Positions 9,539-62,760 of a DNA stretch of 64,000 nt are shown piece by piece. Every line of letters starts with the position of its first letter. The stretch's first letter is position 1. Source of the stretch: Arenibacter nanhaiticus (lineage in GTDB: Bacteria; Bacteroidota; Bacteroidia; Flavobacteriales; Flavobacteriaceae); contig NZ_FQYX01000017.1 of the NCBI RefSeq assembly GCF_900141935.1, positions 1-64,000 of the forward strand. The letters are read 5' to 3'. The notes under the pieces are model-generated. The model ran no database searches. It worked only from the letters and a program-made list of their open reading frames with translations, and had not been told where the DNA came from. Position numbers and translations under genes: made by a program.

Positions 9539-10037
9539 TGTAGAAGTATTCTCAATTGCTATTTGTAAGATTGTTTTTTTAGAAATTAGTATTTCATAGC
9601 TTTCAAAAATAGCAAAATAAGGTGGTAGCACTAATATTTAAACAGGCTTTAATACTAAAATCAGGCCGTTGACTATTTTTCTTATGTTTTTGAAGCTTTT
9701 GACTTCCTAAAGTCTTTATTGTAGTGGCAGAAAGATATGATGCCTCAAGTTAATATGTAGTCCAAAAATGTAATATGGGATAAGGGTATTCCAATTGGTA
9801 GGGTCAATTTTATGATTGCTTGGGCGTTCCCTCCTTCGTCGGGCGGGCCCTTGGCTATATCCCTTGCTCCGCTGCGGGGATGCCGCCGCGGTCCCTAACG
9901 CGAAAAAATATCAAAATGGAGCTATTGTTCAATGTAAGAATAATTCAAAGTGCTCATGAAACACAACAAGGGATTCTAAATTATAGCCCTATATAAGAAG
10001 ATGAAGTTTATAGGGGCCAAAGGGGTAGAGGAATAGT
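9539..10037. other. Intergenic spacer with 80-nt repeat copy 1
   Basis: No credible gene is visible. The only structure is the GC-rich 80-nt element at 9822-9901; the rest is AT-rich. Confidence 0.7.
9822..9901 (+). repeat. 80-nt GC-rich interspersed repeat, copy 1
   Basis: One of five exactly 80-nt copies in this window. It begins GGGCGTTCCC and ends TCCCTAACGC, with complementary ends (GCGTT/AACGC) and internal stems. It carries the C28/G70 pair variant, like copy 4. About 71 percent GC by count, against an AT-rich surrounding. It lies 3-prime of the minus-strand gene at 10038-10547, in antisense orientation to it. Confidence 0.92.
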
Positions 10038-10547
10038 TTAGGTGTTTTTATATTTTTTAATACACTGCGATATAATTTCTTGTATCTCTGCCTCCTTTTG
10101 CGTTCCCAAAAGAATTTTTTTGCCCGATTTATGAATGATTTGTATGCCAATATTTCCACGTACATTGTAAGCCTTCCCGTGTTTTAGGGAAATGCGGTAA
10201 CCCCATCCGCCGTATTCCATAATCGGGTTGTATTTTCGAACAGAACAACTTTCCATTTCCTCCCAGAGGATCGTTTTTTTTCGAAAATGAAAAGGCCTGA
10301 ATTGAAAATGAATGCCTAATTCATCTATTTCTGTTTTTAGCTGTACCACTATTAAAAGCACTAGGGTAAATACAAGGGTTATTACAAGAATTAGCTGCCC
10401 TGTGGTATCATTGCTGGCTACATTGCCAACGGCAGTACCCATTACAAACCATTGAAAAAAGGCATACAGCAAAAAACCAACGGTTGCCCATAGTAATAAG
10501 AGAACCCACCATTGGTTAAAGCGCTGTGTTTCCGTAAATAATCTCAT
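10038..10547 (-). CDS. Hypothetical membrane protein with PH-like cytoplasmic domain
   Basis: A 169-residue protein. Two transmembrane helices (about residues 13-37 and 50-68) are followed by a basic beta-rich domain (about 70-165) with the pattern of bacterial PH domains (IDELGIHFQF, WEEMESCSVR, GIQIIHKSGKKILLGT). Such proteins are frequent in Flavobacteriaceae and lack a defined function. The gene is isolated, with about 240 nt on one side and 500 nt on the other. Confidence 0.8.
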   Translation of the reverse strand: MRLFTETQRFNQWWVLLLLWATVGFLLYAFFQWFVMGTAVGNVASNDTTGQLILVITLVFTLVLLIVVQLKTEIDELGIHFQFRPFHFRKKTILWEEMESCSVRKYNPIMEYGGWGYRISLKHGKAYNVRGNIGIQIIHKSGKKILLGTQKEAEIQEIISQCIKKYKNT

Positions 10548-10788
10548 GGTTAAAAGGAAGGTTTCATAGTTACTATAACGATATCTTTTTGCCTAAAACT
10601 AGAGAGGTGTCAGGACCGAACCCTTTCTTATGCCTCTTTTTCGTCCTAAACCAAAAAGCAATTTTGGAAAGCTGATTCAAAGGTAATTCAACCGTTTTGA
10701 GACGCTTGCCATAATTGGTCATGTTACAATGAAAGTATAAAATTTAACCGCCCTTTCAAAATTAAAATAGTTTTAATTAGCTGTAATG

Positions 10789-13029
10789 TTATGATTTAAA
10801 GTTCTTTGTTTTTTTCTTGTTTGGATTTTTGAAAAGCCTTTTAAAGAAACCATCTCGTTTTACGGGCTCGCAATTTAATATGTGTTGAACAGCTGAGGTC
10901 GGGGCATCAAATTTTGCCTTGGTAATGTAATCAAAGGATTTGTCTGCATTGAGTTTTTGCATCCAAGTAGCGAACATTGGCAAGGCAGCATTTGCCCCTT
11001 GGCCTAAACGGGTACTTCTAAAACCTATTTCATGATTGTCTAACCCTACCCATGTAATATGAACTAATCGTGGGGTAAGGGCCACAAACCATGCATCCTT
11101 ATTATTTTGGGTGGTTCCCGTTTTTCCGGCCATATCATTTTTAAGTCCATAGGTAGATCGGATTCTAGAAGCAGTACCACTATTAATGGTAGCCTTCATC
11201 ATTTCTATCATGATTTGACCGTTTTCTTCAGAAAAAGCCCTCTTTTTGGCAACGATAGGATTAAAAACTTCAAGGATAGAATCTTTGTTATTCGCAATTT
11301 GTTGTATTATAAATGGTTTTACCGATTTCCCGTGATTTAAATAACTAGCATAGGAGCCGGCAAGTTCGTTGATAGTTAATTCTGCGGTACCTAGGGCCAA
11401 AGAAGGAAGGGCAGGTAATTCGCTGCTAATACCCATCTTTTTTGCCTGTTGAATGACATAATCGATGCCGGTTTTCTCTAATACTTTTACAGCAACCGTA
11501 TTGACCGAATTACTCAGGGCTTCTTCCATAGAGTAATTAAGAAAGGTTTCGTCTTTAGAGCCAGCGTTACTGGGCGACCATCCTTCCATATTTTCATAGG
11601 CAACTTCTTGGGCAGAGAAATAAGTACAAGGAGAAATGCCCTTTTCTAAGGCTGCCGTATATACAATAGGTTTAAAAGCCGAACCTACCTGCCGCTTACT
11701 TTGTGAAATATGGTCGTATTTATAATATTTAAAGTTAACGCCCCCGATCCAGGTTTTAACGGCTCCGGATGATGGGTCCAAAGAAAGAGATCCGGTATTT
11801 AGAAATTTAGTATAATGTAGCAAACTATCCACAGTACTGGCAAGCTGACTTTTTTCTACGCCCCAGTCTGCTAAGACCATTTCTTTTTTAAGGTTTAACT
11901 GCTCCAAGGCTTCTTGTTCCGAAAGGCCATTTTTTTTAAGACGTTTATAGGCTTGGGAATTGTGGATGATCTTTTTTATCAGTCGCTTGTCTTTTAGCCA
12001 CGGGGCATTTTTACCATAACTTTTTTCAAAATTATCTTGTAGTGTTTTCATGTGGTCGGCCATAGAGGCTTCGGCCAAAGCTTGCATCTTGTAATCCAAG
12101 GTGGTGTAAACTCTAAGACCGTCCGTATAGATGTTATAAGAATCGCCCTTGTCTTTTTGGGCCTTTGCCCAGCTCAAAAGCTGTTGGCGCACCTCTTCCC
12201 TAAAATAAGGGGCGATCCCTTCGTTATGGTCGTAGCCCTTATAGTTGAGCTGTATAGGTAGGCTGGTAAGGCTGTCTTTTTGTTTAGCTGTTATAAAATC
12301 GTTTTGCTGCATAGATTGCAGTACTAGGTTTCGTCTGCTTAAGCTGTTTTCTGGAAATACCCTGGGATTATAACCATAAGTGGCTTTTAGCATGCCTACG
12401 AGCACGGCACTTTCCTCTATCGTTAGGGCATTGGCGGTTTTGTTAAAGAATTTTAAGGCAGCGCTTTCTATGCCAAAGGTGTTGTCGCCAAAGGAAACGG
12501 TATTGAGGTAAAGGGTTAAAATTTCCTCTTTGGAATAAATAGTTTCCATTCGCCTAGCGATTATCATTTCTTTTAATTTGGAAACAGCTAAATTTAATTT
12601 CCCGGATTTTTCCCTAGGATAGATGTTCTTGGCCAACTGTTGACTAATGGTACTACCACCACCAGAAGATTTGTCCTGTAGGGCAATCGATTTTACCATT
12701 ACTCGCATTAAACTGGTATAGTCTATCCCCTTATGCTCATAAAAACGTTCGTCTTCTATCGCTATTAATGCCTGTAATAAATGTTGGGGAATAGCTTCGT
12801 AGGCTATTGGCTGCCTATCAAATAAATAAAATTTCCCGATAAGGACGCTATCGGCAGAATAAACTTCGGATGCGCGCTGGTATTTAAAATCAGATAGTTC
12901 TTTTTTGTTCGGGATTTTGCCCCAAGCTCCTAGGTAAATGCTTAAGAAAAATAGGAAACCAGCGAATAGAAAACTTAAAAAAAATAGGGTTCCGAACTTT
13001 AAAAAGCGATTTTTAATAGGTATTTGCAT
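10789..13029 (-). CDS. Class A penicillin-binding protein (transglycosylase/transpeptidase)
   Basis: A 746-residue bifunctional peptidoglycan synthase. One N-terminal membrane anchor (about 10-35) precedes a GT51 glycosyltransferase domain with catalytic Glu92 in EDERFYEHKG and the GGSTISQQLAKN motif (about 124-135). The C-terminal transpeptidase has all three penicillin-binding motifs: S450-x-x-K453 (VGSAFKP), S508-V-N510 and K636-T-G. It polymerises glycan strands and cross-links peptides in the periplasm, PBP1A/1B-like. The Lys/Asn-rich C-terminal tail is cytosol-like in composition but lies after the transpeptidase. It is monocistronic as far as can be seen. Confidence 0.95.
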   Translation of the reverse strand: MQIPIKNRFLKFGTLFFLSFLFAGFLFFLSIYLGAWGKIPNKKELSDFKYQRASEVYSADSVLIGKFYLFDRQPIAYEAIPQHLLQALIAIEDERFYEHKGIDYTSLMRVMVKSIALQDKSSGGGSTISQQLAKNIYPREKSGKLNLAVSKLKEMIIARRMETIYSKEEILTLYLNTVSFGDNTFGIESAALKFFNKTANALTIEESAVLVGMLKATYGYNPRVFPENSLSRRNLVLQSMQQNDFITAKQKDSLTSLPIQLNYKGYDHNEGIAPYFREEVRQQLLSWAKAQKDKGDSYNIYTDGLRVYTTLDYKMQALAEASMADHMKTLQDNFEKSYGKNAPWLKDKRLIKKIIHNSQAYKRLKKNGLSEQEALEQLNLKKEMVLADWGVEKSQLASTVDSLLHYTKFLNTGSLSLDPSSGAVKTWIGGVNFKYYKYDHISQSKRQVGSAFKPIVYTAALEKGISPCTYFSAQEVAYENMEGWSPSNAGSKDETFLNYSMEEALSNSVNTVAVKVLEKTGIDYVIQQAKKMGISSELPALPSLALGTAELTINELAGSYASYLNHGKSVKPFIIQQIANNKDSILEVFNPIVAKKRAFSEENGQIMIEMMKATINSGTASRIRSTYGLKNDMAGKTGTTQNNKDAWFVALTPRLVHITWVGLDNHEIGFRSTRLGQGANAALPMFATWMQKLNADKSFDYITKAKFDAPTSAVQHILNCEPVKRDGFFKRLFKNPNKKKTKNFKS

Positions 13030-13250
13030 CCTTGGAATGATTTAGGTACTACAATAGTAATTTAAAAAATTAAAAAGGAGCAAGACTTAACAATACCTTA
13101 AAAAACTATTTGGTAATTTTGGTCCGCTCAGGGTGAGTTAATAAGAACTTACTGTCGGTAGCAGTAATACAATTAAAATTATCAAGGTTTTTACATGGTC
13201 TTTATGATCATCTAAGTCTGAAAGAATTAAAAACCATATAGTGATGTCTT

Positions 13251-13333
13251 GAGCACGACCGAAAATTGGTCGCAAATACGAATTCGGTTATGCGAATTAA
13301 ATATAACCGTTAAAAAACAATAAATATCTACAT
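13251..13333 (+). promoter_or_regulatory. Two-hairpin leader element, copy A
   Basis: Directly upstream of the S1/P1 nuclease gene. It contains GACC-N7-GGTC (13257-13271) followed by AATTC-N8-GAATT (13281-13298), then an AACAATAA stretch before the ATG. The same arrangement and much of the same sequence occurs before the thioredoxin gene at 43299. The adjoining spacer (13030-13250) shows nothing else. Confidence 0.6.
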
Positions 13334-14104
13334 ATGAAGAAGGTGTTTTTTTTATTTTTTCTTGTCGTGCAGCTTTCTTTTGGCAATGACATGGAATGGT
13401 CCAAAACGGGCCATAGGACTATTGGTGAAATTGCCCAGAACCATTTATCGCGTAAAGCCAAAAGAGCTATCGATAAATTATTAAACGGTCAAGGATTGGC
13501 CTTAGTGGCTACTTTTGGCGATGATATAAAGTCAGATCGCAGTTTTTCTAAATTCGGTCCTTGGCACTATGTAAACTATCCTTTAGGGAAAAAATATACA
13601 GAGGTTGCCCCTAGTAAGTCCGGTGATATAGTGACCGGAATTCAGCAGTGCATAGATATTGTTACGGCTAAAAACAGTACCCAAGAAGACAAGGTCTTTT
13701 ACCTAAAAATGCTGGTGCATCTGGTGGGCGATTTACATCAACCGATGCACGCTGGACGATTGGAAGATAAAGGAGGTAACGATATTCAAGTAAGATGGTT
13801 TGGGAAAGGCACAAACCTTCATCGCCTCTGGGATAGCAATATGATCGATGGTTATGGAATGAGCTATATGGAATTGGCCAATAATATGCCGAAGCTTTCT
13901 AAAGCACAGATAAAAACCATTCAACAAGGCAATGTATTGGACTGGGTGGAAGAATCTCATGTCTTAGCAGAGGAATTGTACGGTTCCGTAAAGGTGGGTG
14001 AGAAATTAGGATACCAATACAGTTATAAATATTGGTCCGTTGTAGAGCAGCAGTTACAGAAGGGTGGACTCCGTTTGGCAAAGGTGTTGAATGATATGTT
14101 TTAA
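13334..14104 (+). CDS. S1/P1 family nuclease
   Basis: A 256-residue secreted zinc phosphoesterase that degrades single-stranded nucleic acids. A signal peptide occupies roughly residues 1-18; the mature protein likely begins near Trp22, the usual metal-coordinating N-terminal Trp. Further zinc ligands are visible in KTGHRTIGEIA, GDDIKSD, WHYVNYP, HLVGDLHQPMHAG and LHRLWDSNMI, matching the trinuclear site of the family. It is probably periplasmic or exported for nucleotide scavenging. Single gene, convergent with an AlkB-like gene. The upstream leader carries an unusual two-hairpin element shared with another locus. Confidence 0.93.
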   Translation: MKKVFFLFFLVVQLSFGNDMEWSKTGHRTIGEIAQNHLSRKAKRAIDKLLNGQGLALVATFGDDIKSDRSFSKFGPWHYVNYPLGKKYTEVAPSKSGDIVTGIQQCIDIVTAKNSTQEDKVFYLKMLVHLVGDLHQPMHAGRLEDKGGNDIQVRWFGKGTNLHRLWDSNMIDGYGMSYMELANNMPKLSKAQIKTIQQGNVLDWVEESHVLAEELYGSVKVGEKLGYQYSYKYWSVVEQQLQKGGLRLAKVLNDMF

Positions 14105-14162
14105 AGTCTAAGCTAGCACTAGGATTTGCCTATTGCAAAACTTTTTTTTGGATGTGAATGAT

Positions 14163-14194
14163 AAAAAAATCGATTCTTTAGAGTCGGTTTTTTT
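14163..14194. terminator. Rho-independent terminator between convergent genes
   Basis: CGATTC / GAGTCG stem (one G-T pair) with a 4-nt loop, flanked by A7 and T7, between the S1/P1 nuclease and the AlkB-like gene. Its end overlaps the AlkB stop codon. Confidence 0.75.
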
Positions 14195-14792: not shown

Positions 14793-14918
14793 GATAGTGA
14801 AATAAATAAGGCAGTTTTCCCTGACGATTGTGGGGAGTGTTGCTACCTTCTCTTTTGCTATATTTTTACTTGGTTAAACTTATACATAGCCCACACCGTA
14901 ATCCTAATTTAGGGCGTT

Positions 14919-15551: not shown

Positions 15552-15611
15552 TGTATAAAGGTAATAAAGCTTTGTTTAATAATGACAGACGATTTCTCAC
15601 TCTAAAACACT

Positions 15612-15971: not shown

Positions 15972-16174
15972 ATTCTTTTTCCTTAAAGGTAAGCTTTAGC
16001 TGTTATTGGCCAACATTTTTTTCTGCCTTCCATCATGCCGGAAGCTATTATTGGGGTGTATGTATATACGATACAAAATAGCATGGGACATTTATTTATA
16101 TCAAAAGCTTTTTCTCGTATAAATTTATAAATTGGAAGTTTTCATGATTGGTCAAAATTATGAAGACAAAATAA

Positions 16175-16200
16175 GGCTGTCTTTTCAGACAGCCTCATTT
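16175..16200 (-). terminator. Terminator of htpG
   Basis: Perfect 8-bp stem GGCTGTCT / AGACAGCC with a 4-nt loop, 35 nt after the htpG stop on the minus strand, followed by a T-rich run in that direction. Confidence 0.8.
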
Positions 16201-27555: not shown

Positions 27556-28518
27556 ATGAGTTTATTTAAGAAAATATTTTCTACCCAGAAAAAAGAGTCT
27601 TTAGACAAGGGTCTAGAAAAGACTAAAACCAGTTTTTTTTCAAAACTTGGTAAAGCCGTTGTTGGAAAGTCTAAAGTAGACGACGAAGTTTTAGATAGTT
27701 TAGAAGAGGTCCTTGTGTCGTCAGACGTAGGCGTAAATACTACCTTGAAGATCATAGAGAGAATAGAGGCAAGGGTGAACCGGGACAAATACCTCGGGGT
27801 GCAGGAGCTGAATTTGATTCTAAGAGAAGAAATAGCAGGATTGTTGTCCGAAACCAATTCTGGAGACGAAACCGATTACAGTATTCCAAAAGACAAGAAA
27901 CCATACGTCATTATGGTTGTTGGGGTAAACGGTGTGGGGAAAACTACTACCATCGGGAAGCTGGCCTATCAATTCAAAAAGAAAGGCCTTAAAGTGGTTC
28001 TCGGTGCCGCAGATACCTTTAGGGCAGCAGCCATAGATCAGTTGCAAGTATGGGCAGATCGGGTCGATGTACCCATTGTACGCCAGGAAATGGGGAGTGA
28101 TCCCGCTTCGGTGGCATTCGATACCTTAAGTTCTGCCGTTTCGCAAAACGCCGATGTGGTTATTATTGACACCGCCGGAAGATTGCACAATAAGGTGAAT
28201 TTGATGAATGAGCTCACCAAGGTGAAACGCGTGATGCAAAAGGTGGTAGCCGATACCCCGCACGATGTTTTATTGGTCTTGGATGGTTCTACCGGTCAAA
28301 ATGCCTTTGAGCAGGCCAAGCAGTTTACCAAGGCAACGGAAGTTACTTCCCTGGCGGTTACTAAATTGGACGGTACGGCTAAAGGAGGGGTGGTTATCGG
28401 TATCTCTGATGAGTTTCAAATCCCGGTAAAATATATTGGGGTCGGAGAAGGTATCGAAGACTTACAAGTGTTCAATAAAATGGAGTTTGTAGATTCCTTT
28501 TTTAGTAACAAAGCTTAA
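27556..28518 (+). CDS. ftsY: Signal recognition particle receptor FtsY
   Basis: A 320-residue SRP GTPase that delivers ribosome-nascent chain complexes to the translocon. Short N-terminal basic segment, NG domain with P-loop GVNGVGKTTTIGKLA (about 120-135), the ADTFRAAAIDQL G2 region, DTAGRLHNK (G3), TKLDGTAKGG (G4) and the closing GVGEGIEDLQVF. The A domain is short, as usual in Bacteroidetes. It follows the ribosomal gene cluster and precedes rimO, a conserved order. Confidence 0.97.
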   Translation: MSLFKKIFSTQKKESLDKGLEKTKTSFFSKLGKAVVGKSKVDDEVLDSLEEVLVSSDVGVNTTLKIIERIEARVNRDKYLGVQELNLILREEIAGLLSETNSGDETDYSIPKDKKPYVIMVVGVNGVGKTTTIGKLAYQFKKKGLKVVLGAADTFRAAAIDQLQVWADRVDVPIVRQEMGSDPASVAFDTLSSAVSQNADVVIIDTAGRLHNKVNLMNELTKVKRVMQKVVADTPHDVLLVLDGSTGQNAFEQAKQFTKATEVTSLAVTKLDGTAKGGVVIGISDEFQIPVKYIGVGEGIEDLQVFNKMEFVDSFFSNKA

Positions 28519-28640: not shown

Positions 28641-28720
28641 GGGCGTTCCCTCCTTCGTCGGTCGGGCTCTTCGCTATATCCCTTGCCTTGCTGCGGGGAT
28701 GCCGCTGCGATCCCTAACGC
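28641..28720 (+). repeat. 80-nt GC-rich interspersed repeat, copy 2
   Basis: Same 80-nt family as at 9822. Carries the T28/A70 variant and the CTT loop at positions 47-49. It is in the sense direction of ftsY and lies 122 nt after its stop. Confidence 0.92.
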
Positions 28721-29226: not shown

Positions 29227-30528
29227 ATGCGTACAAAGACACTTAAAAAGAATAAGATTAATATGGTAACCTTGGGGTGTTCCAAGAATTTATACGATTC
29301 AGAGGTTATCATGGGGCAGTTAAAGGCCAATGGTAAAGATGTTGCTCATGAAGAGGAGGGGAATGTCGTTGTCATCAATACCTGTGGGTTTATAGCCAAT
29401 GCCAAGGAAGAGAGTGTAAATACTATTTTAGATTATGTTCAGAAGAAGGAAGCTGGGGAAATAGATAAGGTTTTTGTTACCGGTTGTTTAAGTGAACGTT
29501 ATAAACCCGATTTACAGAAGGAAATTCCGAATGTAGATGAGTATTTTGGGACTAGCGAACTACCAAACTTATTAAAAGCACTAGGGGCAGATTATAAGCA
29601 TGAGCTTATTGGGGAGCGTTTAACTACAACTCCAAAGAACTATGCCTATTTAAAAATAGCGGAAGGTTGCGACAGACCTTGTTCCTTTTGTGCTATCCCA
29701 TTAATGAGAGGGAAGCATAAAAGTACTCCTATAGAAGAGTTGGTAATAGAGGCTAATAAATTAGCCGCTAAGGGGGTAAAAGAGCTTATATTGATTGCTC
29801 AAGATCTTACTTATTACGGATTGGATCTGTATAAGAAAAGAAATTTGGCCGAACTTTTAAAAGAGTTGGTAAAGGTTGAAGGGATTGAGTGGATTAGATT
29901 GCACTACGCATTCCCTGCTGGGTTTCCTATGGATGTGCTCGAGGTAATGAACCAAGAGCCTAAAATATGTAACTATATCGATATTCCATTACAGCATATT
30001 TCGGACGCCATTCTTAAAAGTATGCGCCGTGGAACAACTCAGGAAAAAACCACTAAATTGTTGAAGGAATTTAGAGAGGCCGTACCTGGCATGACTATTA
30101 GGACCACTTTAATCGTGGGGTATCCTGGTGAAACCGAAGAAGATTTTCAGGTGCTGAAACAATGGGTAGAAGATATGCGTTTTGAACGTTTAGGATGTTT
30201 TACCTATAGCCACGAAGAAAATACCCATGCGTATAACTTAGAAGATAATGTTCCGGAAGAGGTGAAGCAAGAACGGGCCAATGAGATCATGGAAATTCAA
30301 TCGCAAATTTCTTGGGAATTGAACCAGCAAAAAGTTGGGCAGGTCTTTAGGTGTATTATCGATCGTAAGGAAGGAAACTATTTTGTAGGACGTACGGAAT
30401 TTGACTCTCCAGATGTAGATAATGAGGTGTTGATAGATGCAGCACAGCACTACGTAAAACAAGGGGAGTTTGTAGATATAAAGATTACCGAGGCAGCCGA
30501 TTTTGATTTGTACGGAGAACCGGTTTAA
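29227..30528 (+). CDS. rimO: Ribosomal protein S12 methylthiotransferase RimO
   Basis: A 433-residue radical-SAM enzyme that methylthiolates an Asp of ribosomal protein S12. N-terminal UPF0004 domain (TLGCSKNLYDSEV, INTCGFIANAKEES, VTGCLSERY) carries the Cys ligands of the auxiliary cluster. The radical-SAM CxxxCxxC motif is GCDRPCSFCAIP (about 150). The C-terminal TRAM domain ends the protein. All motifs intact. It is flanked on both sides by 80-nt repeat copies in opposite orientation. Confidence 0.96.
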   Translation: MRTKTLKKNKINMVTLGCSKNLYDSEVIMGQLKANGKDVAHEEEGNVVVINTCGFIANAKEESVNTILDYVQKKEAGEIDKVFVTGCLSERYKPDLQKEIPNVDEYFGTSELPNLLKALGADYKHELIGERLTTTPKNYAYLKIAEGCDRPCSFCAIPLMRGKHKSTPIEELVIEANKLAAKGVKELILIAQDLTYYGLDLYKKRNLAELLKELVKVEGIEWIRLHYAFPAGFPMDVLEVMNQEPKICNYIDIPLQHISDAILKSMRRGTTQEKTTKLLKEFREAVPGMTIRTTLIVGYPGETEEDFQVLKQWVEDMRFERLGCFTYSHEENTHAYNLEDNVPEEVKQERANEIMEIQSQISWELNQQKVGQVFRCIIDRKEGNYFVGRTEFDSPDVDNEVLIDAAQHYVKQGEFVDIKITEAADFDLYGEPV

Positions 30529-30925: not shown

Positions 30926-31005
30926 GCGTTAGGGATCGTAGCGGCATCCCCGCAGCAAGGCAAGGGATACAGCGAAGAGCCCGACCGACGAAGGAGGGAA
31001 CGCCC
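30926..31005 (-). repeat. 80-nt GC-rich interspersed repeat, copy 3
   Basis: Minus-strand copy of the 80-nt element, T28/A70 variant. It is the closest relative of copy 2: the two differ at only two sites (36 and 67). It lies between the convergent rimO and EamA genes. Confidence 0.92.
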
Positions 31006-31153: not shown

Positions 31154-32047
31154 TTAGAGGCTTGTTTTAATCTGTTTTTTTGGGAATAAACGAATGGGTC
31201 TATCTATAAAGGTAACCCTGATGCCAGACAGTAGAATGATTCCGCCAATGACCATTTGTAAGGTGATTTCCTCATTTAAGAATATCCAAGCGAATAGTGC
31301 GGCTAGGAATGCTTGGCCTAATAGGCTTAGCGATACTCTGGTGGCACGCATATGTTTCGTGGCATAACTGAGAAGTACCCAGGCTAATAATTGACAAACT
31401 AAGCCTTGTACGATTAATACGCCCCAGCCTATATTTGAAAAACCGCTGAAGGGCTCGCCTATGTACCAAGAAAGTCCCGCTAAAAATATGGACGATCCCA
31501 AAAGGCTTAGCGTTAGAAAGGACACCACATCGGTACTGCCTAGTAAGTGCTTGCTTAAGAGTAGGTATGCCGAGTAAAATACCCCCGATAAGATTCCAAA
31601 ATAAAAACCGATATCGAAAGATAGGTCCAGAAAAAAGCGAAACCCAACAAGGGTAATCATACCGAATAGAGCTATCATCGTTCCTATCCAGAAATTTCTG
31701 GAAGGCTTTGGGCTTAAAAAAAGGAAAGTTGCGATCCCTACCCAAATAGGCGATAAATTGGTCAGTAATGAGGCTTGGGTGGCTGTAGATTCCTGAATGG
31801 CAATATTCCATACAGCAACGTCAGAACCAAAGAGAGCTCCGCACAAAAGAGTTAACAATAAAATCTTTGTAGACGGTATTTTAATTTTTTTCTTGATGAT
31901 GGCATAGGGTAGTAGCACAGCCAAGGCTATGGCCATTCTATAAAATGCCGATATAACACCAGGGGTGTAGTTTAGCTTTACTAAAATAGGGAAAATGGCA
32001 ATGCATAAAATCCCAATTAACAAGGCAATCTGAGGTTTTGTAAACAT
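31154..32047 (-). CDS. EamA/DMT-family transporter
   Basis: A 297-residue protein with ten predicted helices in two EamA repeats of five, the drug/metabolite transporter fold. Repeat 1 ends near 135 (ATQASLLTNLSPIWVG), repeat 2 spans 150-280 (RATRVSLSLLGQAFLAALFAWIFLNEEIT). The substrate is unknown. Single gene with a -7 element upstream. A second EamA gene lies at 57255. Confidence 0.88.
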   Translation of the reverse strand: MFTKPQIALLIGILCIAIFPILVKLNYTPGVISAFYRMAIALAVLLPYAIIKKKIKIPSTKILLLTLLCGALFGSDVAVWNIAIQESTATQASLLTNLSPIWVGIATFLFLSPKPSRNFWIGTMIALFGMITLVGFRFFLDLSFDIGFYFGILSGVFYSAYLLLSKHLLGSTDVVSFLTLSLLGSSIFLAGLSWYIGEPFSGFSNIGWGVLIVQGLVCQLLAWVLLSYATKHMRATRVSLSLLGQAFLAALFAWIFLNEEITLQMVIGGIILLSGIRVTFIDRPIRLFPKKQIKTSL

Positions 32048-47896: not shown

Positions 47897-47969
47897 TGAC
47901 TTGGCTGGGGCTCGAACCCAGGACCCTCTCCTTAAAAGGGAGATGCTCTACCAACTGAGCTACCAAGTC
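47897..47969 (-). tRNA. tRNA-Lys (anticodon TTT), copy 1
   Basis: 73-nt gene, GACTTGG/CCAAGTC acceptor stem, D-loop AGCTCAGTTGGTAGAGC, anticodon loop CTTTTAA and T-loop GGTTCGA. No CCA is encoded. Discriminator A. Identical by eye to the other three copies. Confidence 0.97.
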
Positions 47970-48163
47970 ATAATGTATGTAGAACAAAAAACCAAGACAA
48001 TGAATAATTGCTATCTATGATATTTTGTGTTGTAGACTAGTTTTAAATAAAAACCTTTTTTGTCAATTTTGCCCTCCTAAGAAGGCCTGTTTGTCAAATT
48101 TAAACAAAGGATTTAAAAACGATGTCAGATAAATAATAAGTGAATGATACACTTAGCTTTTTG

Positions 48164-48236
48164 TGACTTGGCTGGGGCTCGAACCCAGGACCCTCTCCTT
48201 AAAAGGGAGATGCTCTACCAACTGAGCTACCAAGTC
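48164..48236 (-). tRNA. tRNA-Lys (anticodon TTT), copy 2
   Basis: Identical 73 nt to copy 1. The downstream hairpin is degenerate here compared with copy 1. Confidence 0.97.
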
Positions 48237-48300
48237 ATTAATATGCTGCGCAGGACAAAAAATAAAAAACAATGAAAAAACTGTTATTTATACTGCTTAG

Positions 48301-48384
48301 TGCCCACGACTAGATTCGAACTAGCACGTCCTTGCGAACACCACCCCCTCAAGGTGGCGTGTCTACCAATTTCACCACGTGGGC
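48301..48384 (-). tRNA. tRNA-Leu (anticodon GAG)
   Basis: 84-nt class II tRNA: GCCCACG/CGTGGGC acceptor stem, anticodon loop TTGAGGG with GAG at positions 34-36, a long variable arm (TGTTCGCAAGGACG) and T-loop AGTTCGAAT. Reads CUC Leu codons. Sits between two tRNA-Lys copies. Confidence 0.95.
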
Positions 48385-48453
48385 TCTTGAGTTAGATATC
48401 CAAAAATCGGACGCCTTTCTAAAAGAAATGATATAGAAACTATTTCAAATAAA

Positions 48454-48479
48454 AAAAGTTAAGCGGAAACCTAACTTTA
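48454..48479 (-). terminator. Terminator of tRNA-Lys copy 3
   Basis: AAAGTTA / TAACTTT stem with a 10-nt loop in which a further G-C pair can form. Followed by T7 on the minus strand. Same sequence class as 48706-48729. Confidence 0.65.
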
Positions 48480-48480
48480 G

Positions 48481-48553
48481 TGACTTGGCTGGGGCTCGAA
48501 CCCAGGACCCTCTCCTTAAAAGGGAGATGCTCTACCAACTGAGCTACCAAGTC
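48481..48553 (-). tRNA. tRNA-Lys (anticodon TTT), copy 3
   Basis: Identical 73 nt to copies 1, 2 and 4. Confidence 0.97.
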
Positions 48554-48705
48554 AGAATGTATATCGTATAAAAATAAATCTGTTTTAATATACGTTTCTA
48601 ATGATCAGATCTATGCTTGCATCTGACTGCTGTGCATTTAAATCTTTTATTCAATATTTCAGAGATAACCCTAAACCGTTATTTTAGGCGTTATTAAAAA
48701 TTAAA

Positions 48706-48729
48706 AAAGTTAAGTGGAAACCTAACTTT
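48706..48729 (-). terminator. Terminator of tRNA-Lys copy 4
   Basis: AAAGTTA / TAACTTT stem, near-identical to the terminator of copy 3 (one loop base differs), indicating that the spacer was duplicated together with the tRNA. Confidence 0.65.
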
Positions 48730-48731
48730 AG

Positions 48732-48804
48732 TGACTTGGCTGGGGCTCGAACCCAGGACCCTCTCCTTAAAAGGGAGATGCTCTACCAACTGAGCTACCA
48801 AGTC
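48732..48804 (-). tRNA. tRNA-Lys (anticodon TTT), copy 4
   Basis: Identical 73 nt to copies 1-3; first in transcription order of the minus-strand array. Confidence 0.97.
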
Positions 48805-50901: not shown

Positions 50902-50980
50902 AAACTATTGAAATTCTTTGTTAACGTCTTCTACAAAAATAGGGGAAAATTGTATCTTGCGGCCTTTAAATAAGAAATCA

Positions 50981-51916
50981 ATGAATATTAAAAGAATTCT
51001 TTTCCTCGCATTAATTGTCACTTTTGTATACTCATGTAAGAAAGATGACGGTGGATCTTCTATACCCCCAACACCGCCAAGATTATTAAGTGAAGTGGCG
51101 GTGGAAAATGATGCCGAGATAAAAACCTTTCTGGAAACTCATTTTTACAATTACGAAGCCTTTGAAAACCCAACAGAGGATTTTGATTACAGGATCGTGA
51201 TTGATACGATAGCTGGAGTTAATTCCGAGAAAACTCCGTTAATAGATCAGGTGAAGATAGAAGTAGTAAAAGTGTCTACCTCAGATTTGCGTTTGGGAGC
51301 GGAAGCAATCGTAGAAACAGATATTCCTCACAATCTTTATTATTTAATAGCCAGGGAAGGAGAAGGTGTTAGTCCTACTTCGGTAGATTCTGTATACGTG
51401 AATTATCAGGGTACAGCACTGAGCGGAGATATTTTTGACAGTCAAATAGGAGCTCCTGTTTGGTTTGACTTGCCAGGGCTGGTAAACGGATTTAGAAAAG
51501 GGATTACTAAATTTAAGACCGGTGGTGAGGTTCAAGAGAATGGCGATGGTACTTATACGGTGCCAGGTTCAGGGATCGGAATGCTTTTTATACCATCTGG
51601 ACTAGGGTATTTTAACGGAAGTGCTACTGGAAAATCTTATGACCCTTTGGTTTTTGAAATAAATTTGTTGGCCATGAAATCGTCTGACCACGATGGCGAT
51701 GGAGTAATTACTGCTCTTGAAGATTTAGATGGCGATGGTGATCTTTTTAACGATGATACCGACGGGGATAAATTTCCGAATTATATGGATAAAGACGATG
51801 ATGGAGATGGTGTCTCAACAAGGGACGAAATAGAAATTGATGCAGAAGGGAATGTAACTTTCCCAGATACGGATGGGGATGGCATTCCTGATTATTTAGA
51901 TGCAGATACGAAATAG
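50981..51916 (+). CDS. FKBP-type lipoprotein with C-terminal calcium-repeat tail
   Basis: A 311-residue protein. The lipobox is FVYSC (Cys19). After a linker, residues about 105-235 form an FKBP-like PPIase domain (VDSVYVNYQGTALSGDIFDS, VNGFRKGITKFKTGGE, GMLFIPSGLGYFNG). The last 70 residues hold Asp-rich TSP3-like calcium repeats (DHDGDGVITALEDLDGDGD..., [14 protein letters not shown]), an uncommon addition to an FKBP. The start at 50981 precedes a clean lipoprotein signal; an earlier in-frame ATG does not. Envelope PPIase, perhaps linked to gliding/T9SS as in GldI-like FKBPs, but that is inference. Confidence 0.88.
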   Translation: MNIKRILFLALIVTFVYSCKKDDGGSSIPPTPPRLLSEVAVENDAEIKTFLETHFYNYEAFENPTEDFDYRIVIDTIAGVNSEKTPLIDQVKIEVVKVSTSDLRLGAEAIVETDIPHNLYYLIAREGEGVSPTSVDSVYVNYQGTALSGDIFDSQIGAPVWFDLPGLVNGFRKGITKFKTGGEVQENGDGTYTVPGSGIGMLFIPSGLGYFNGSATGKSYDPLVFEINLLAMKSSDHDGDGVITALEDLDGDGDLFNDDTDGDKFPNYMDKDDDGDGVSTRDEIEIDAEGNVTFPDTDGDGIPDYLDADTK

Positions 51917-52104: not shown

Positions 52105-52184
52105 GGGCGTTCCCTCCTTCGTCGGGCGGGCCCTTGTCTATATCCCTTGCTTCGCTGCGGGGATGCCGCCGCGGTCCCTAACGC
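52105..52184 (+). repeat. 80-nt GC-rich interspersed repeat, copy 4
   Basis: Exactly 80 nt, C28/G70 variant, closest to copy 1. Sense relative to the FKBP gene, which ends 188 nt before. The tandem hairpin array starts 16 nt later. Confidence 0.92.
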
Positions 52185-52411: not shown

Positions 52412-52999
52412 TTAAAGGCTAATGGCTAAACTTAAAATTAATTGATCTGGTCTAGTGTCTATTCTGTCACCAGTAGTTATCCCGTTAGAATTAAATACGG
52501 TTACTTCGTTTTCGGTAAAGCCTCTTTCGTATCTAAGGTCTATTCCGAACTTCCCAAAAGAAATACCGGCACCAATATTCAATCCAACTGTAAAATCATT
52601 TTCAACATCGCCAATGGTTATCCCGTCAAAATCCGTATCCAAAATATATTGGAAAGATGGACCGGCAAAAACCTGTAGTGGGCCAACTAGATTAACACCT
52701 ACAAGAAGCGGAAGGTCTAGTTTGCTCATGTCAAGACTATTGTTTTCGTAGTCTGATTTCGTTTTGGTATACACCAATTCTGGTCTAAAGTAAATATCCG
52801 TACCTACCTTGCCAAAAAATCCAACGTGATAACCAACATTGCTATCCGGATTTTTATAAGCATCTTCAGTAGATTCAAAATAATCACCGTTAGCACCATA
52901 ATTTAGACCTGCTTTGATCCCAAAACCAGGATCTTTTTGCGCGATAGCAGTGAAGCTTCCTAAAGCAAATACTGCCAGTAAAAATGTTTTCTTTATCAT
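52412..52999 (-). CDS. Outer-membrane beta-barrel protein (porin-like)
   Basis: A 195-residue protein with a signal peptide ending AIAQ (about residue 20), then eight amphipathic strands typical of the OMP beta-brl_2/PorT-like family (GFGIKAGLNYGAN, VGYHVGFFGKV, DIYFRPELVYTK, and a C-terminal LILSLAISL). Function unknown; small barrels of this type are abundant in Bacteroidetes envelopes. Single gene. Confidence 0.87.
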   Translation of the reverse strand: MIKKTFLLAVFALGSFTAIAQKDPGFGIKAGLNYGANGDYFESTEDAYKNPDSNVGYHVGFFGKVGTDIYFRPELVYTKTKSDYENNSLDMSKLDLPLLVGVNLVGPLQVFAGPSFQYILDTDFDGITIGDVENDFTVGLNIGAGISFGKFGIDLRYERGFTENEVTVFNSNGITTGDRIDTRPDQLILSLAISL

Positions 53000-58145: not shown

Positions 58146-58166
58146 GGTAGCTTCCCTTTAAAGTTT

Positions 58167-58174
58167 TATATTTG
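58167..58174 (+). promoter_or_regulatory. Bacteroidetes -7 promoter element before accA
   Basis: TATATTTG, an exact TAnnTTTG match, 29 nt before the ATG of accA. Confidence 0.5.
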
Positions 58175-58203
58175 CTTTTTGAAAGAAACAAACTTTTAAA
58201 CCT

Positions 58204-59157
58204 ATGGAGTATTTAGATTTTGAACTACCAATTAAAGAACTAGAAGAGCAGCTAGATAAGTGCATGATCATCGGAGAGGAAAGTGATGTGGACGTTTCTG
58301 AGACCTGTAAGCAGATAGAGAAAAAGTTGGCAGAAACTCGTAAGGAAATTTATAAGAATCTTACCGCATGGCAAAGGGTGCAATTATCCAGACACCCCAA
58401 TAGGCCTTATACTTTAGATTATATAAAAGCCCTTTGTGGGGATACCTTTTTAGAATTGCATGGCGATCGAAATGTGAAAGACGATAAGGCTATGATTGGC
58501 GGTCTTGGTAAAATAGGCGACCAAAGTTATATGTTCGTCGGGCAACAGAAAGGGTATAATACCAAGACTAGACAGTATCGTAATTTTGGGATGGCAAATC
58601 CCGAAGGCTATAGAAAAGCCTTGCGACTGATGAAATCTGCGGAAAAATTTGGCGTACCTGTTGTTTGCTTTATTGATACTCCGGGAGCATATCCAGGAAT
58701 TGAAGCCGAAGAAAGAGGGCAAGGAGAGGCTATTGCAAGGAATATATTGGAAATGACCCGTTTAAAGGTGCCGATTATTGTTGTGATTATTGGTGAAGGA
58801 GCCTCTGGAGGTGCCTTAGGGATAGGAGTAGGAGACCGTGTGCTGATGTTGGAAAATACTTGGTACTCTGTTATTTCGCCAGAATCTTGTTCTTCTATCC
58901 TTTGGAGAAGTTGGGAATACAAAGAATTGGCGGCCGAAGCTCTTAAGCTAACGGCTACCGATATGAAAAAAATGAAATTGATCGATGAAATCGTGAAGGA
59001 GCCTGCTGGTGGAGCACATTCCGACCGCGAGAAAACATTCGAAATCATAAAAGGTAAAATTACTTCGCACTACGAAGAATTAAAAAAGTTATCACCAAAA
59101 GATTTGGTGAATTCACGTATGGATAAATACGCTAATATGGGTGTATATAACGGATAG
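58204..59157 (+). CDS. accA: Acetyl-CoA carboxylase carboxyltransferase subunit alpha
   Basis: A 317-residue subunit that moves CO2 from biotin to acetyl-CoA, making malonyl-CoA, the first committed step of fatty-acid synthesis. It has the N-terminal helical AccA region ([13 protein letters not shown]), the crotonase-like core ([44 protein letters not shown] in separated blocks, and [17 protein letters not shown] for the oxyanion hole) and [11 protein letters not shown]. Length is normal. Followed by a terminator. Confidence 0.97.
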
Positions 59158-59179
59158 CAAGCCTATTTGTCAAGCTGAG

Positions 59180-59213
59180 AAAATCTGGGGAAATAATTCT
59201 CCGGATTTTTTTT
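59180..59213 (+). terminator. Terminator of accA
   Basis: AATCTGGGGA / TCTCCGGATT stem (10 bp, two G-T pairs) with a 6-nt loop and T8 tail, 22 nt after the stop. Confidence 0.87.
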
Positions 59214-59215
59214 GC

Positions 59216-59271
59216 TTATCAACAATATCTGTAACTTATTAACAATGAAATTGTTGATGAACTGTTGATAT
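59216..59271. promoter_or_regulatory. Cluster of DnaA-box-like 9-mers upstream of dnaB
   Basis: TTATCAACA (59216-59224), TTATTAACA (59236-59244), and on the other strand TCATCAACA (59252-59260) and ATATCAACA (59263-59271). These resemble the DnaA box TTATCCACA by one to three changes each. They lie 43-98 nt before the dnaB start. Confidence 0.4.
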
Positions 59272-59313
59272 CGTTACCACCTTTTTAAAGCTTTTTTGTC
59301 TAATTTAGCACTC

Positions 59314-60858
59314 ATGGAAAAAACAAATCCTGTTATTGGTCATCGGATAGATAAGTCGACTATCATAAACCTTGAAAAAGGAAAAATACCACCTCAAGCG
59401 GTTGATTTAGAGGAGGTTGTTCTCGGTGCATTGATGATTGACAAAAAAGGTGTCGATGAAGTGATAGACATCTTGCATCCCGAAGTCTTTTATAAAGATG
59501 CCCATCGATTTATTTTTGAGGCTATTTTTAAATTGTTCGAAAACTCCGAACCGATTGACTTATTAACAGTTTCGTCCCAATTAAAGAAGGACGGGCGCCT
59601 AGAAGGAGCAGGGGGTGATTTTTACCTGATTAAACTGACCCAAAAAGTGGCCTCTTCGGCGCATATCGAGTTTCATGCCCGTATTATTCTTCAAAAATTT
59701 ATTCAAAGAAGTCTTATTAAGATCTCCAACGAAATTATTGAGGAAGCTTACGACGATGCTACCGATGTATTTGATTTGTTGGATACCGCCGAATCTAAAT
59801 TATACGACGTTACTCAAGGGAATTTAAAAAGATCTGCAGAAACCGCACAAAATTTGGTGATGCAGGCCAAGAAAAAAATTGAGGAAATTGCCGGTAAGGA
59901 AGGGTTGAGTGGAATTCCGTCCGGATTTGATAAGTTGGACAAGCTTACTTCTGGGTGGCAACCTAGTGATTTGATTATTGTAGCAGCACGTCCTGGTATG
60001 GGTAAAACGGCTTTGACCTTGTCTATGGCAAGGAATATTGCTGTAAACTCCAATATCGGAGTAGCTTTCTTTTCTCTGGAGATGTCCTCGGTGCAGTTAA
60101 TTACCAGGTTAATATCCTCGGAAACCGGATTGTCTTCTGAAAAATTAAGGACCGGAAAACTAGAAAAACACGAATGGGAGCAATTAAACGTAAAGGTGAA
60201 AGCCTTGGAAAATGCCCCATTGTTTATAGATGATACCCCTTCTTTGTCTATTTTCGATTTAAGGGCTAAGGCCAGACGATTGGCCTCTCAGTTCGGAATA
60301 AAAATGATCATCATTGATTATTTGCAGTTAATGACAGCAGGAGGAAGTCAGAAAGGTGGGAATAGGGAACAAGAGATATCTACTATTTCTCGTAACTTAA
60401 AAGCACTCGCAAAAGAACTGAGTGTACCTGTAATTGCCTTATCGCAGTTATCGCGTGCCGTAGAAACAAGGGGCGGTAGTAAGCGCCCTGTGCTATCGGA
60501 TTTGAGGGAATCCGGTGCGATTGAACAGGATGCGGATATTGTGTCCTTTATCTATAGGCCAGAGTACTACAAGATTGATGAATGGGACGATGAAGAGCGT
60601 TCTCCAACAGCTGGTCAAGGAGAATTCATTGTGGCAAAACACAGAAACGGTGGTCTGGAAAATATCCGATTGAAGTTTATCGGAAACTTAGGTAAGTTCG
60701 ATAACTTGGATGATTTTGATTCTCCCTTCGAGTATCAGTCCAAAATGAACGCCGATGAGGATAATCCGTTTATCACCAAAAATCTTCCCAATGCCAATGA
60801 GGCATTTGGAAGTTCTATGAACAATGGTGGTATAGATGATAATGATGTGCCCTTTTAA
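59314..60858 (+). CDS. dnaB: Replicative DNA helicase DnaB
   Basis: A 514-residue hexameric helicase. N-terminal DnaG-interacting domain (about 30-130, PPQAVDLEEVVLGALMID), linker helix, and RecA-like motor: Walker A ARPGMGKTALTL (about 232-243), Walker B IIIDYLQLM, and the SQLSRAVETRGG and SDLRESGAIEQDADIV loops. The C-terminal tail is acidic. No intein. The ATG at 59314 is preferred to a TTG six codons earlier. A cluster of DnaA-box-like sequences lies upstream. Confidence 0.97.
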   Translation: MEKTNPVIGHRIDKSTIINLEKGKIPPQAVDLEEVVLGALMIDKKGVDEVIDILHPEVFYKDAHRFIFEAIFKLFENSEPIDLLTVSSQLKKDGRLEGAGGDFYLIKLTQKVASSAHIEFHARIILQKFIQRSLIKISNEIIEEAYDDATDVFDLLDTAESKLYDVTQGNLKRSAETAQNLVMQAKKKIEEIAGKEGLSGIPSGFDKLDKLTSGWQPSDLIIVAARPGMGKTALTLSMARNIAVNSNIGVAFFSLEMSSVQLITRLISSETGLSSEKLRTGKLEKHEWEQLNVKVKALENAPLFIDDTPSLSIFDLRAKARRLASQFGIKMIIIDYLQLMTAGGSQKGGNREQEISTISRNLKALAKELSVPVIALSQLSRAVETRGGSKRPVLSDLRESGAIEQDADIVSFIYRPEYYKIDEWDDEERSPTAGQGEFIVAKHRNGGLENIRLKFIGNLGKFDNLDDFDSPFEYQSKMNADEDNPFITKNLPNANEAFGSSMNNGGIDDNDVPF

Positions 60859-60906
60859 TTCTAAAAGAAGAATTTTATAGTGTATCTTACGGTCTAAACC
60901 CTTGAA

Positions 60907-62208
60907 GTGAATCTAGATTTTTATCTTCCCGTGCTTTCAAAACTGCTATATAGGAGGTTGTTGGTCTTGATGTTTTTGATGGGTTCGTGGAGCAGCTTTG
61001 CTTCTAACATCCTTATACCTATGGATGCCGAATCTCAAAAGAACCATTTAAAAGCATATGGGATAACCTTTTGGGTACTTACCAAACAACAAAAAGTACA
61101 GTGGCTATTAAATTATAGGGGTGGGGCGTTTTTATTGCCAGACGGAGAAAGTATCCGTAAAGAATGCCAAATTAGAGGAGTATCTTTTGAAGTTATTTCA
61201 GATGCCAAGGCCTTGTCTATTTTGGAAGGTATCAGTAGTCCATCCAAAAATCAGGAAGCTGTAATATTAGAAAAAGCGCCTAGAATAGCTGTTTACTCAC
61301 CTAAAGACAATCAGCCTTGGGACGATGCCGTGACCATGGTGCTCTCCTATGCCGAAATACCGTATGATAAAGTCTATGATGAAGAAGTTTTAGAAGATAA
61401 ATTGGTGCTGTACGATTGGTTGCACTTGCATCATGAGGACTTTACAGGGCAGTATGGAAAGTTTTATGGCGCGTATAGAGCTACACCCTGGTATATTGAA
61501 GGCAAAAGAAATGCTGAAGCCTTGGCGGCCAAATTAGGGTATTCCAAGGTGTCTGAACAAAAGCGCGACGTTGCCTTGAAAATTAGAAATTACGTGATTG
61601 GAGGCGGATTTATGTTTGCCATGTGTTCTGCTACCGATAGTTTTGATATTGCCTTGGCAGCCGCTGGTGTGGATATATGCGAGCCTATGTTCGATGGCGA
61701 TCCTTCCGAGGCCAATTATCAAAACAAACTTGATTTTGAGAGTACTTTTGCCTTCACAAATTTTACCTTGGAACGGAATCCCTTGCAATATGAATTTTCG
61801 TCCATAGACATGACCAATAAAAGATCGAGGGTTCCTAAAGAGTCAGATTATTTTTCTTTGATGGATTTTTCAGCAAAATGGGATCCTATCCCTACAATGC
61901 TTTGTCAAAACCATACCGCTTTGGTAAAAGGGTTTATGGGGCAAACGACGGCCTTTACAAGGGAGGAAATAAAGCCTACGGTATTGGTGTTGGGTGAAAA
62001 TAAAATAAATGGGGAGGCCCGATATATTCACGGGATCAAAGGGAAAGGTTTTTTTACCTTTTATGGTGGTCACGACCCGGAAGATTACCAGCACAGGGTT
62101 GGTGATCCTAAAACAGAACTAGAACTGCATCCTACCTCTCCGGGCTATCGGTTAATCCTTAATAATGTGCTATTTCCGGCGGCACGGAAAAAGAAGCAAA
62201 AGACCTAA
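60907..62208 (+). CDS. Conserved periplasmic protein with GATase-like domain
   Basis: A 433-residue exported protein: a signal peptide ends near SFASN (about residue 34), then an N-terminal helical region that begins ILIPMDAESQKNHLKAYGITFWVL. The middle and C-terminal part resembles a class I glutamine-amidotransferase/ThuA-like fold: Cys in GGGFMFAMCSATDSFDIALAAAG (about 237-259) at a nucleophile-elbow-like turn and a His in FYGGHDPEDYQHRVGDP. Homologues are often labelled asparagine synthetase B, but no AsnB N-terminal Cys or synthetase domain is visible. The start is a GTG; function unknown. Confidence 0.83.
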   Translation: MNLDFYLPVLSKLLYRRLLVLMFLMGSWSSFASNILIPMDAESQKNHLKAYGITFWVLTKQQKVQWLLNYRGGAFLLPDGESIRKECQIRGVSFEVISDAKALSILEGISSPSKNQEAVILEKAPRIAVYSPKDNQPWDDAVTMVLSYAEIPYDKVYDEEVLEDKLVLYDWLHLHHEDFTGQYGKFYGAYRATPWYIEGKRNAEALAAKLGYSKVSEQKRDVALKIRNYVIGGGFMFAMCSATDSFDIALAAAGVDICEPMFDGDPSEANYQNKLDFESTFAFTNFTLERNPLQYEFSSIDMTNKRSRVPKESDYFSLMDFSAKWDPIPTMLCQNHTALVKGFMGQTTAFTREEIKPTVLVLGENKINGEARYIHGIKGKGFFTFYGGHDPEDYQHRVGDPKTELELHPTSPGYRLILNNVLFPAARKKKQKT

Positions 62209-62760
62209 GGGGCCATGCATAAGACATTGTCCTATTAATTTGGGGTATCTTCACCCGTACTTGCGAACTGTCCCCTAAAGTCTCCCGGTTTTATAGGTAA
62301 TCTTATCTACGATTACAATATTGCCATAACCCGACTTCCAATGAGGGTTATTTTAATATTTTAGTAGCTACTCGTCTCAGGAGGTTCCTTCTTTTTTATT
62401 TGAGCTCGTTACCTGCATTCTCTTCGTTTTTAAATTGTGGTAGCATTCATAACGCTTTTACATTGCCTCATTTTAAAACCTTCAAATCTACTCATTGTGC
62501 CATTTTCCCGCGTTAGGGATCGCAGCGGCATCCCCGTAGCGGAGCGAGGGATATAGCGAAGAGCCCGCCCGACGAAGGAGGGAACGCCCAAATAGTTATC
62601 CCGAAAGCTAATAAGATTACTAATAGCGCAGACTTCTTCTTTTAGTTTAACATTTTGATTGTGGGATATAGCAGCTGAGATAGCAGTAGGGGTGGGAGAA
62701 TTAAAAATAGCCCTAAAAAGGGCTGTTCATAAAAGTATTGTCGTTTAAGAAGTGCGTTCT
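62209..62760. other. Convergent spacer with 80-nt repeat copy 5
   Basis: The repeat at 62510-62589 is the only structure found. Otherwise AT-rich with no gene. Confidence 0.7.
62510..62589 (-). repeat. 80-nt GC-rich interspersed repeat, copy 5
   Basis: Minus-strand copy, T28/A70 variant, with a few private changes (C44, A53). Lies between the convergent GATase-like and HAD genes. Confidence 0.92.

Follow-up and report, generated by a model that had tools for sequence, protein, structure and literature searches.

GC-rich 80-nt elements at gene ends in Arenibacter, read as an amplified variant of the Flavo-1 family

Introduction

What are the five short, GC-rich sequences scattered between the genes of a 64,000-nt stretch of the Arenibacter nanhaiticus genome (assembly GCF_900141935.1, contig NZ_FQYX01000017.1, positions 1 to 64,000; the whole stretch is called the window here)? 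A first-pass annotation, made from the sequence alone, had described them as one family of interspersed elements, and its coordinates and strands held: each copy is exactly 80 nt long, starts with GGGCGTTCCC and ends with TCCCTAACGC, and their GC content is 65-71%, compared to 39% for the window. They belong to a family of about 200 copies in the genome of the window strain, which is placed at the 3′ ends of genes in either orientation, and we read the 80-nt form as a GC-rich, amplified variant of Flavo-1 (Rfam RF01705).

The first-pass annotation named no published description. At the level of the family one exists, since the longer copies reported below are Flavo-1, published in 2010, which Table 1 of Weinberg et al. 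2010 (PMC2864571) gives as probably an RNA, not cis-regulatory, in Bacteroidetes. In the passages on Flavo-1 in a transcriptome study of Flavobacterium psychrophilum (PMC9723704), its matches are sense or antisense to transcribed regions and many lie in none, and their location is said to offer no functional clue, though several coincide with 5′ transcribed regions. A review mentions Flavo-1 where it treats the most abundant small RNAs (PMC9029176). For the 80-nt GC-rich variant, or for Flavo-1 as a repeat, no prior description was found in searches of the open-licence PMC literature.

Results

Copies, forms and ends

Two forms were distinguished: R-type, of 80 or 77 nt, and L-type, a longer form with a T6...A6 middle hairpin. 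The five window copies are the following.

9822..9901, plus strand: 80-nt element, R-type, in the spacer of tandem minus-strand genes 8735-9631 (HAD hydrolase) and 10038-10547 (no Pfam match)
28641..28720, plus strand: 80-nt element, R-type, in the spacer of tandem plus-strand genes 27556-28518 (SRP54-type GTPase) and 29227-30528 (radical SAM/UPF0004/TRAM)
30926..31005, minus strand: 80-nt element, R-type, between convergent genes 29227-30528 (plus) and 31154-32047 (minus, EamA transporter)
52105..52184, plus strand: 80-nt element, R-type, between convergent genes 50918-51916 (plus, FKBP-like) and 52412-52999 (minus, OMP beta-barrel)
62510..62589, minus strand: 80-nt element, R-type, between convergent genes 60907-62208 (plus, no Pfam match) and 62761-63588 (minus, HAD hydrolase)

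The spacer context was as first described, with two copies in tandem spacers, three between convergent genes and none in a divergent spacer. Mean column identity of the five was 95%. A covariance model recovered exactly these five in the window and nothing else (E 1.5e-16 to 3.7e-13); its training set held four of them among other sequences and did not include 52105-52184.

Searching the whole genome of the window strain (G000) with the 5′ 21-mer gave 155 matches at up to 3 mismatches (79 forward, 76 reverse), and the element 3′ end gave 205 at up to 2 mismatches (102 and 103 by strand); the controls, with a reversed pattern for the 21-mer, gave 0 in both cases. In a BLAST-type search 40 of 167 candidates were scored, all 40 with 98-100% identity across the full 80 nt. 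The first-pass annotation had tied the novelty of the family to its being neither confined to five copies nor a remnant of a known family; the copies number about 200, and they belong with a known family, Flavo-1.

Among the 135 copies of the genome with both ends found in the sequence examined, 108 were 80 nt long, 3 were 77 nt and 24 were 87-95 nt. The constant length claimed at first is therefore that of the commonest form, and the family as a whole spans 77-95 nt. R-type accounted for 111 of the 135. The three 77-nt copies join an L-like hairpin P1 to an R-like hairpin P2 (fold described below), two 95-nt copies join an R-like P1 to an L-like P2, and because these chimaeric copies combine both types, we place L- and R-type in one family. 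A number of L-type copies are found close to the ends of contigs and may sit at rRNA operons; an L-type copy at L122:2483-2567 precedes a 16S rRNA gene (3401-3542) by about 0.8 kb.

The element has no sharp boundary at 80 nt. In 56 copies, T occupied each of the three preceding positions in 50-54, and a weak A-rich stretch, roughly 7-nt-periodic, followed on the 3′ side. By eye, a degenerate 7-nt periodic sequence (CAATNARCAATNAAC-like) occupies positions 81-110 after many copies, most clearly for L-type. No target-site duplication showed up as an excess of flank duplication in 111 copies, and only GCGTT/AACGC (5 bp) is inverted at the ends, so that the label MITE-like, offered at first, did not survive. 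Read as TGG GCG TTC ... TAA, the element is an open frame, with T at every third base upstream. A conserved coding tail was rejected, since the in-frame stop frequency climbs from 2% at 21 nt to 5% at 120 nt upstream. An intrinsic terminator was rejected too: on either strand, the T that precedes the element and the A that follows it stand in the wrong order for one, a judgement made by reading, without a terminator scan.

A covarying fold and its relation to Flavo-1

RNAalifold, applied to 41 sequences from across the phylum, gave a 5-bp outer stem and a long arm. The overall fold consists of this outer stem, the variable hairpin P1, and the long arm ending in the variable hairpin P2. With P1 added, 94.1% of 934 cells in the 41 aligned sequences were paired and 54 cells had changed on both sides, and none of 500 shuffles matched the pairing or the double-change value. 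Sliding the partners cut pairing to 47-51%; the number of further pair types was unexceptional (86 of 500 shuffles), and for P1 alone the paired share was 73.5% of cells. Variation was greatest at the pair of columns 35:90, which occurred as 19 UA, 10 AU, 6 CG and 3 GC. In 142 R-type copies the highest mutual information fell on 28:70, which is the same pair (CG 71, TA 43, exceptions 15 AG and 7 GA), and mutual information was also present at 29:69 in the 80-nt copies. Across the stretches that a GTDB scan for the 3′ core returned (see below), P1 and P2 vary freely, and the junction is constant. On the strand of the original observation G.T pairs filled 84 cells and A.C pairs 4, mostly from three columns, which hints that this strand, opposite to Rfam's, may be the one that folds.

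L-type copies match Rfam Flavo-1 on the strand opposite to that of the original observation. The gathering score of the model (42 bits) was reached or passed by the long copies in L151, L193, L168, L219, L196 and L183, and, in the 15 loci of the window strain given to it, by 13 of 14 L-type copies and 0 R-type copies. R- and L-type alike have the conserved core and the nested helices of the Flavo-1 consensus structure, with covariation. On the grounds of the chimaeric copies and the common covarying fold, we therefore read the 80-nt form as a Flavo-1 variant. It differs from the Rfam family in its GC-rich P1 and P2 and is missed as a whole by the Rfam model; the outer stem and P1 lie partly outside that model. 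Copy number differs as well, with about 200 here compared to 1-34 in other relatives with a match; the window strain, its relative 6A1 and one genome of another genus (G640) each have at least 36. In three loci from other genera (L143, L208, L214) the P2 region seems by eye to hold a second, different palindrome (CATTGCGAGGA...GCAATCTC-like), which gives the impression of repeats nesting within the P2 hairpin.

Conservation at orthologous sites

The closest comparison was with Arenibacter sp. 6A1 or a near-identical strain (G012). The five window sites were taken without selection and are thus free of similarity-based detection bias. All five are occupied at the same place in 6A1, four of them with 1-5 differences: 4 at 28641..28720, 5 at 30926..31005, 2 at 52105..52184 and 1 at 62510..62589. 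The site of 9822..9901 holds the 77-nt form, with a different P1. The only extra 6A1 copy in the syntenic stretch sits in a duplicated segment of 560 nt. This segment, with the ortholog of the 52105 element, is found twice in direct orientation, about 3.8 kb apart, on G012 contig C8 (about 65.4-69.7 kb, L359), and is single in the window strain, pointing to deletion or duplication by recombination. The 28641..28720 copy is absent from the corresponding spacers of four more distant species (G001, G004, G008, G010), spacers too diverged to show a junction or a clean empty site. No clear empty site appeared among the other mappable sites (19 elements of the window strain, 16 of 6A1), most of these stretches having been chosen around elements. 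With sites shared and no clear empty site, the expansion is therefore taken to be older than the split of the window strain and 6A1.

Matched elements of the two genomes were 95.6% identical (1622/1696; the 21 equal-length pairs of 25), compared to 76.0% in aligned columns of their flanks, 120 nt per side (4190/5511; all 25 pairs, the four of unequal length being excluded from the element count and kept here). At least one of these pairings, L123-L342, probably joins elements that are not orthologs, and L348 was the match of both L075 and L076. For 16 pairs picked by hand from the 25, all of 80 nt and without L075 and L076, the mean number of differences was 3.06, compared to 6.9 between all copies of both genomes, 5.9 between copies within the window strain and 7.0 within 6A1. 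The 49 differences in these 16 pairs are confined to 16 of the 80 positions.

Species with few copies showed the same pattern. Pooled, their elements were 97.2% identical and their flanks 73.4% (21 comparisons, 26 loci; 10 of the 26 elements were compared over 61 nt only, the 5′ anchor lying inside the element, 3 of the 21 comparisons paired loci of a single genome, and the 21 are not independent of one another). A site close to an ATP-synthase-like gene (named from its translation) carries the element, nearly unchanged, in six species. Site-specific variants were shared across species and not within a genome, for example CCCTGGCGTTGC in L413, L414 and L415, and CTAGGTC in L429 and L438; this sharing speaks against homogenisation. 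The 77- and 80-nt forms have been exchanged at the same site twice (window 9822 against G012, and L009 against L229), and conversion between copies may still happen. Conservation at fixed gene ends suggests that the element does something there.

Distribution and placement

In a pattern search, 6A1 had 220 3′ ends and the 16 other Arenibacter species 2-8 each; by the Rfam model, the low-copy species had 4-10 matches. The same model found Flavo-1 in 63 of 119 genomes (the window strain and its relatives) and in 0 of 14 control genomes. A GTDB scan for the 3′ core returned at least 105 stretches, and all 80 listed titles, by reading, name Bacteroidota taxa. In a phylum sample searched with a strict pattern, the core motif occurred in 28 of 395 genomes, with at most 9 copies outside the window strain. 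G640 is a high-copy genome of another genus. IMG/VR held one contig with the 3′ motif, and viral spread was rejected on that count.

Of 99 R-type copies classified in the window strain, using gene calls based on open reading frames (ORFs), 49 lay between convergent genes, 44 between tandem and 6 between divergent ones; 12 further copies, at edges or inside small ORFs, were left unclassified. Element-free spacers of 6A1 (n=196), a background from the sister genome, divided into 21 convergent, 130 tandem and 45 divergent, which gives p 7e-13 for the convergent excess and 1.6e-4 for the divergent class. Elements of 6A1 itself were convergent in 17 of 26 cases (p 3e-9), and those of G640 in 9 of 28, compared to 16 of 145 (p 0.007). 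Within tandem spacers, 24 elements of the window strain were on the same strand as the genes and 20 on the opposite strand; G640, with 11 and 5, leans to the same strand. Elements are thus placed at 3′ gene ends in either orientation.

Transposase genes and paired copies

At one 6A1 locus (L151) a 239-aa RAYT-type open frame with the motifs NHFH, WQ and YIINNP is flanked by an L-type copy on one side and an inverted 77-nt copy on the other. Of this frame, a 211-aa part scored 62 bits to NF047646 (cut-off 80) and 21.7 to Pfam Y1_Tnp (cut-off 23), and the RAYT of G012 is 100% identical to that of L151. At the same place in the window strain both copies are present and the interior is shortened. 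Strong matches to this protein in 18 genomes of the genus were restricted to G012, where two further homologs have no adjoining element; G004, G015 and G005 gave weak matches (E 0.03-0.3). One RAYT in two sister genomes amounts to one event, so the RAYT link is a lead. The L151 protein has motifs like those of subclass 2.4 (NHFH, YIINNP) in the scheme of Quentin et al. 2018 (PMC6006769), where the part on Bacteroidetes RAYTs of subclass 2.6 describes flanking 'atypical secondary structures' with copies elsewhere.

Y1 loci of the genus, counted by family, had an element in their flanks in 4 of 29 cases, at about 0.5 kb in L242 and beyond 1 kb in L251, L265 and L266. The sole Y1 gene of the window strain above the Pfam cut-off has IS200-like motifs (DHCH, YIKNQEEHH), and its 1.5-kb flanks are free of the element. 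The ORF start beside this only intact Y1 gene (L061:1160-1263, contig C31) overlaps what appears to be another palindromic repeat, possibly that transposase's own REP, an impression from the translation. A different Y1 transposase is intact in 6A1 (L242, G012 contig C11) and apparently cut short in the window strain (L123:2520-2760, contig C50) by sequence rich in heptamers; at both loci an L-type element is found about 0.5 kb from the gene. Outside the genus, L371 gave a weak covariance-model match (E 0.035) and L365 matched half of the pattern poorly, as shuffled sequence does at a similar rate. A general partnership with RAYT was rejected, since the 60 RAYT/Y1 loci surveyed outside Arenibacter gave no support for it.

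Copies at most 1.5 kb apart form 12 pairs, 11 in the window strain and one in 6A1, orthologous to a window-strain pair. All 12 are inverted with 3′ ends facing and consist of one L-type and one R-type copy. Genes for a type II pair, HigB toxin and HTH_3 antitoxin, lie between an R-type and an L-type copy at L117:2967-3914; an HTH remnant below the Pfam cut-off lies inside a pair at L036, and an HTH_3 gene is near an L-type copy at L127.

A separate feature of the window is a run of five consecutive tRNA genes on the minus strand (47897-48804), four of them with an identical Rfam score.

Discussion

Taken as a whole, the data are in our view best explained by an amplified Flavo-1 derivative that was dispersed as hairpin DNA and is kept by the host as a boundary at gene ends, an account whose chances of being right and wrong we judge to be balanced. 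A GC-rich derivative would have been amplified before the window strain and 6A1 diverged, reaching about 200 copies in their common ancestor, and the copy set would have been static since, as far as sampled. Dispersal may have taken place as hairpin DNA, with an HUH/Y1 transposase of RAYT type, acting in trans, as the candidate. Host selection would then have kept the copies because the fold has an effect at the gene end; its likeliest role would be that of a boundary that works in either orientation, be it a transcript-end barrier, a decay barrier or a protein-binding hairpin. Such an element would be a Bacteroidota counterpart of REP and ERIC elements rather than a trans-acting small RNA gene. 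The broader statement, that Flavo-1 in general is a mobile, domesticated structural element, an HUH-dispersed, strand-specific DNA hairpin kept as a 3′ boundary and found in GC-rich version at about 200 Arenibacter sites, we put forward only tentatively.

Several observations weigh against this account. The five window copies had no Flavo-1 match at the Rfam gathering score, and the one R-type copy tested (9700-10000) had none at E up to 10. The second-highest mutual information, at 32:66 (GC 95, CT 39), does not correspond to standard pairing. Positions 28 and 70 had both changed in five ortholog pairs, with the standard pair kept in 3 and lost in 2, and the five window copies, folded singly, did no better than their dinucleotide shuffles (z -0.83 to +0.86 over the two strands). 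The low-copy loci were found through similarity to a window element, so that diverged or lost copies would be missed and constraint is perhaps overstated. Beyond the genus, 60 RAYT/Y1 loci, representing about 53 genes, had no clear element within about 1.5 kb. Nor was any presence/absence polymorphism seen between the window strain and 6A1; of the first-pass description as one mobile or structured unit, the structured, interspersed part is borne out by copy number, fixed ends and covariation, and mobility is thus not directly observed.

The same repeats could instead be purely selfish, REP-like sequences that an HUH transposase spread, with no host function and with gene conversion maintaining their similarity. 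Within the genus, high copy number is limited to two sister genomes, the L151 RAYT is flanked by two inverted copies, whose interior is shortened at the corresponding locus of the window strain, and the 77/80-nt exchange at two sites looks like conversion. Yet locus-specific states are shared across species in genomes with few copies, and copies within a genome (5.9 and 7.0 differences) are hardly closer than copies between genomes (6.9), with orthologs far closer (3.06). We regard this explanation as doubtful. A further alternative takes the elements as the ends of cassette-like composites, with an L-type end, cargo and an inverted 80/77-nt R-type end, solitary copies being leftover ends. The uniformly inverted, heterotypic close pairs fit it, as do interiors with a RAYT (L151), HigB and HTH_3 (L117) and an HTH remnant (L036), and L-type copies near an HTH_3 gene (L127) and a Y1 transposase (L242). 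Nevertheless, most interiors are short and without recognisable genes, only 11 of the 111 R-type copies (135 copies in total) are in such pairs, and no comparable arrangement was seen at the loci examined in other genera with a loose pattern that gave several chance matches, so that we consider composites improbable. Rfam types Flavo-1 as 'Gene; sRNA' and Table 1 of Weinberg et al. 2010 has it as 'probably' an RNA, but a small RNA gene with paralogous copies is very hard to credit given about 200 copies, with neither strand preferred relative to tandem neighbours in the window strain (24 and 20, with G640 leaning 11 to 5), matches in F. psychrophilum that the cited passages (PMC9723704) place sense, antisense and often outside transcribed regions, and G.T pairs almost all on the strand opposite to Rfam's (84 against 4 cells, mostly three columns).

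The preferred account, a domesticated gene-end hairpin, invites comparison with known repeats. ERIC and similar repeats are conserved imperfect palindromes of about 100 nt, found at gene ends in both orientations, with no known transposase. By description, our elements resemble ERIC in size, palindromy and gene-end placement, and differ in phylum. In integron attC sites the outer R boxes read RYYYAAC ... GTTRRRY and are recognised together with IntI; by reading, such boxes in our element would be in the wrong orientation. With REP, BIME and REPIN sequences and their RAYT (TnpA_REP) it shares imperfect palindromes at gene ends, bursts in some genomes and one RAYT between two inverted copies, but it is longer (77-95 nt), has a branched fold and lacks the GT[AG]G foot. 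Neither GT[AG]G nor CGTC beside a hairpin of 20-40 nt was found, the ends being GGGCGTT and GCGTTAGGG. The term REP-like in the first-pass annotation is accordingly apt for copy number and gene-end preference, and not for the foot; the RAYT link is at one locus.

Flavo-1 has been on record since 2010 as an RNA of unassigned function, and the largest expansion encountered in this work escapes the Rfam model. The Arenibacter lineage offers a natural amplification, conservation that can be tested at single loci, and a candidate transposase. This suggests that Flavo-1 is worth studying as a repeat of gene ends, in both orientations.

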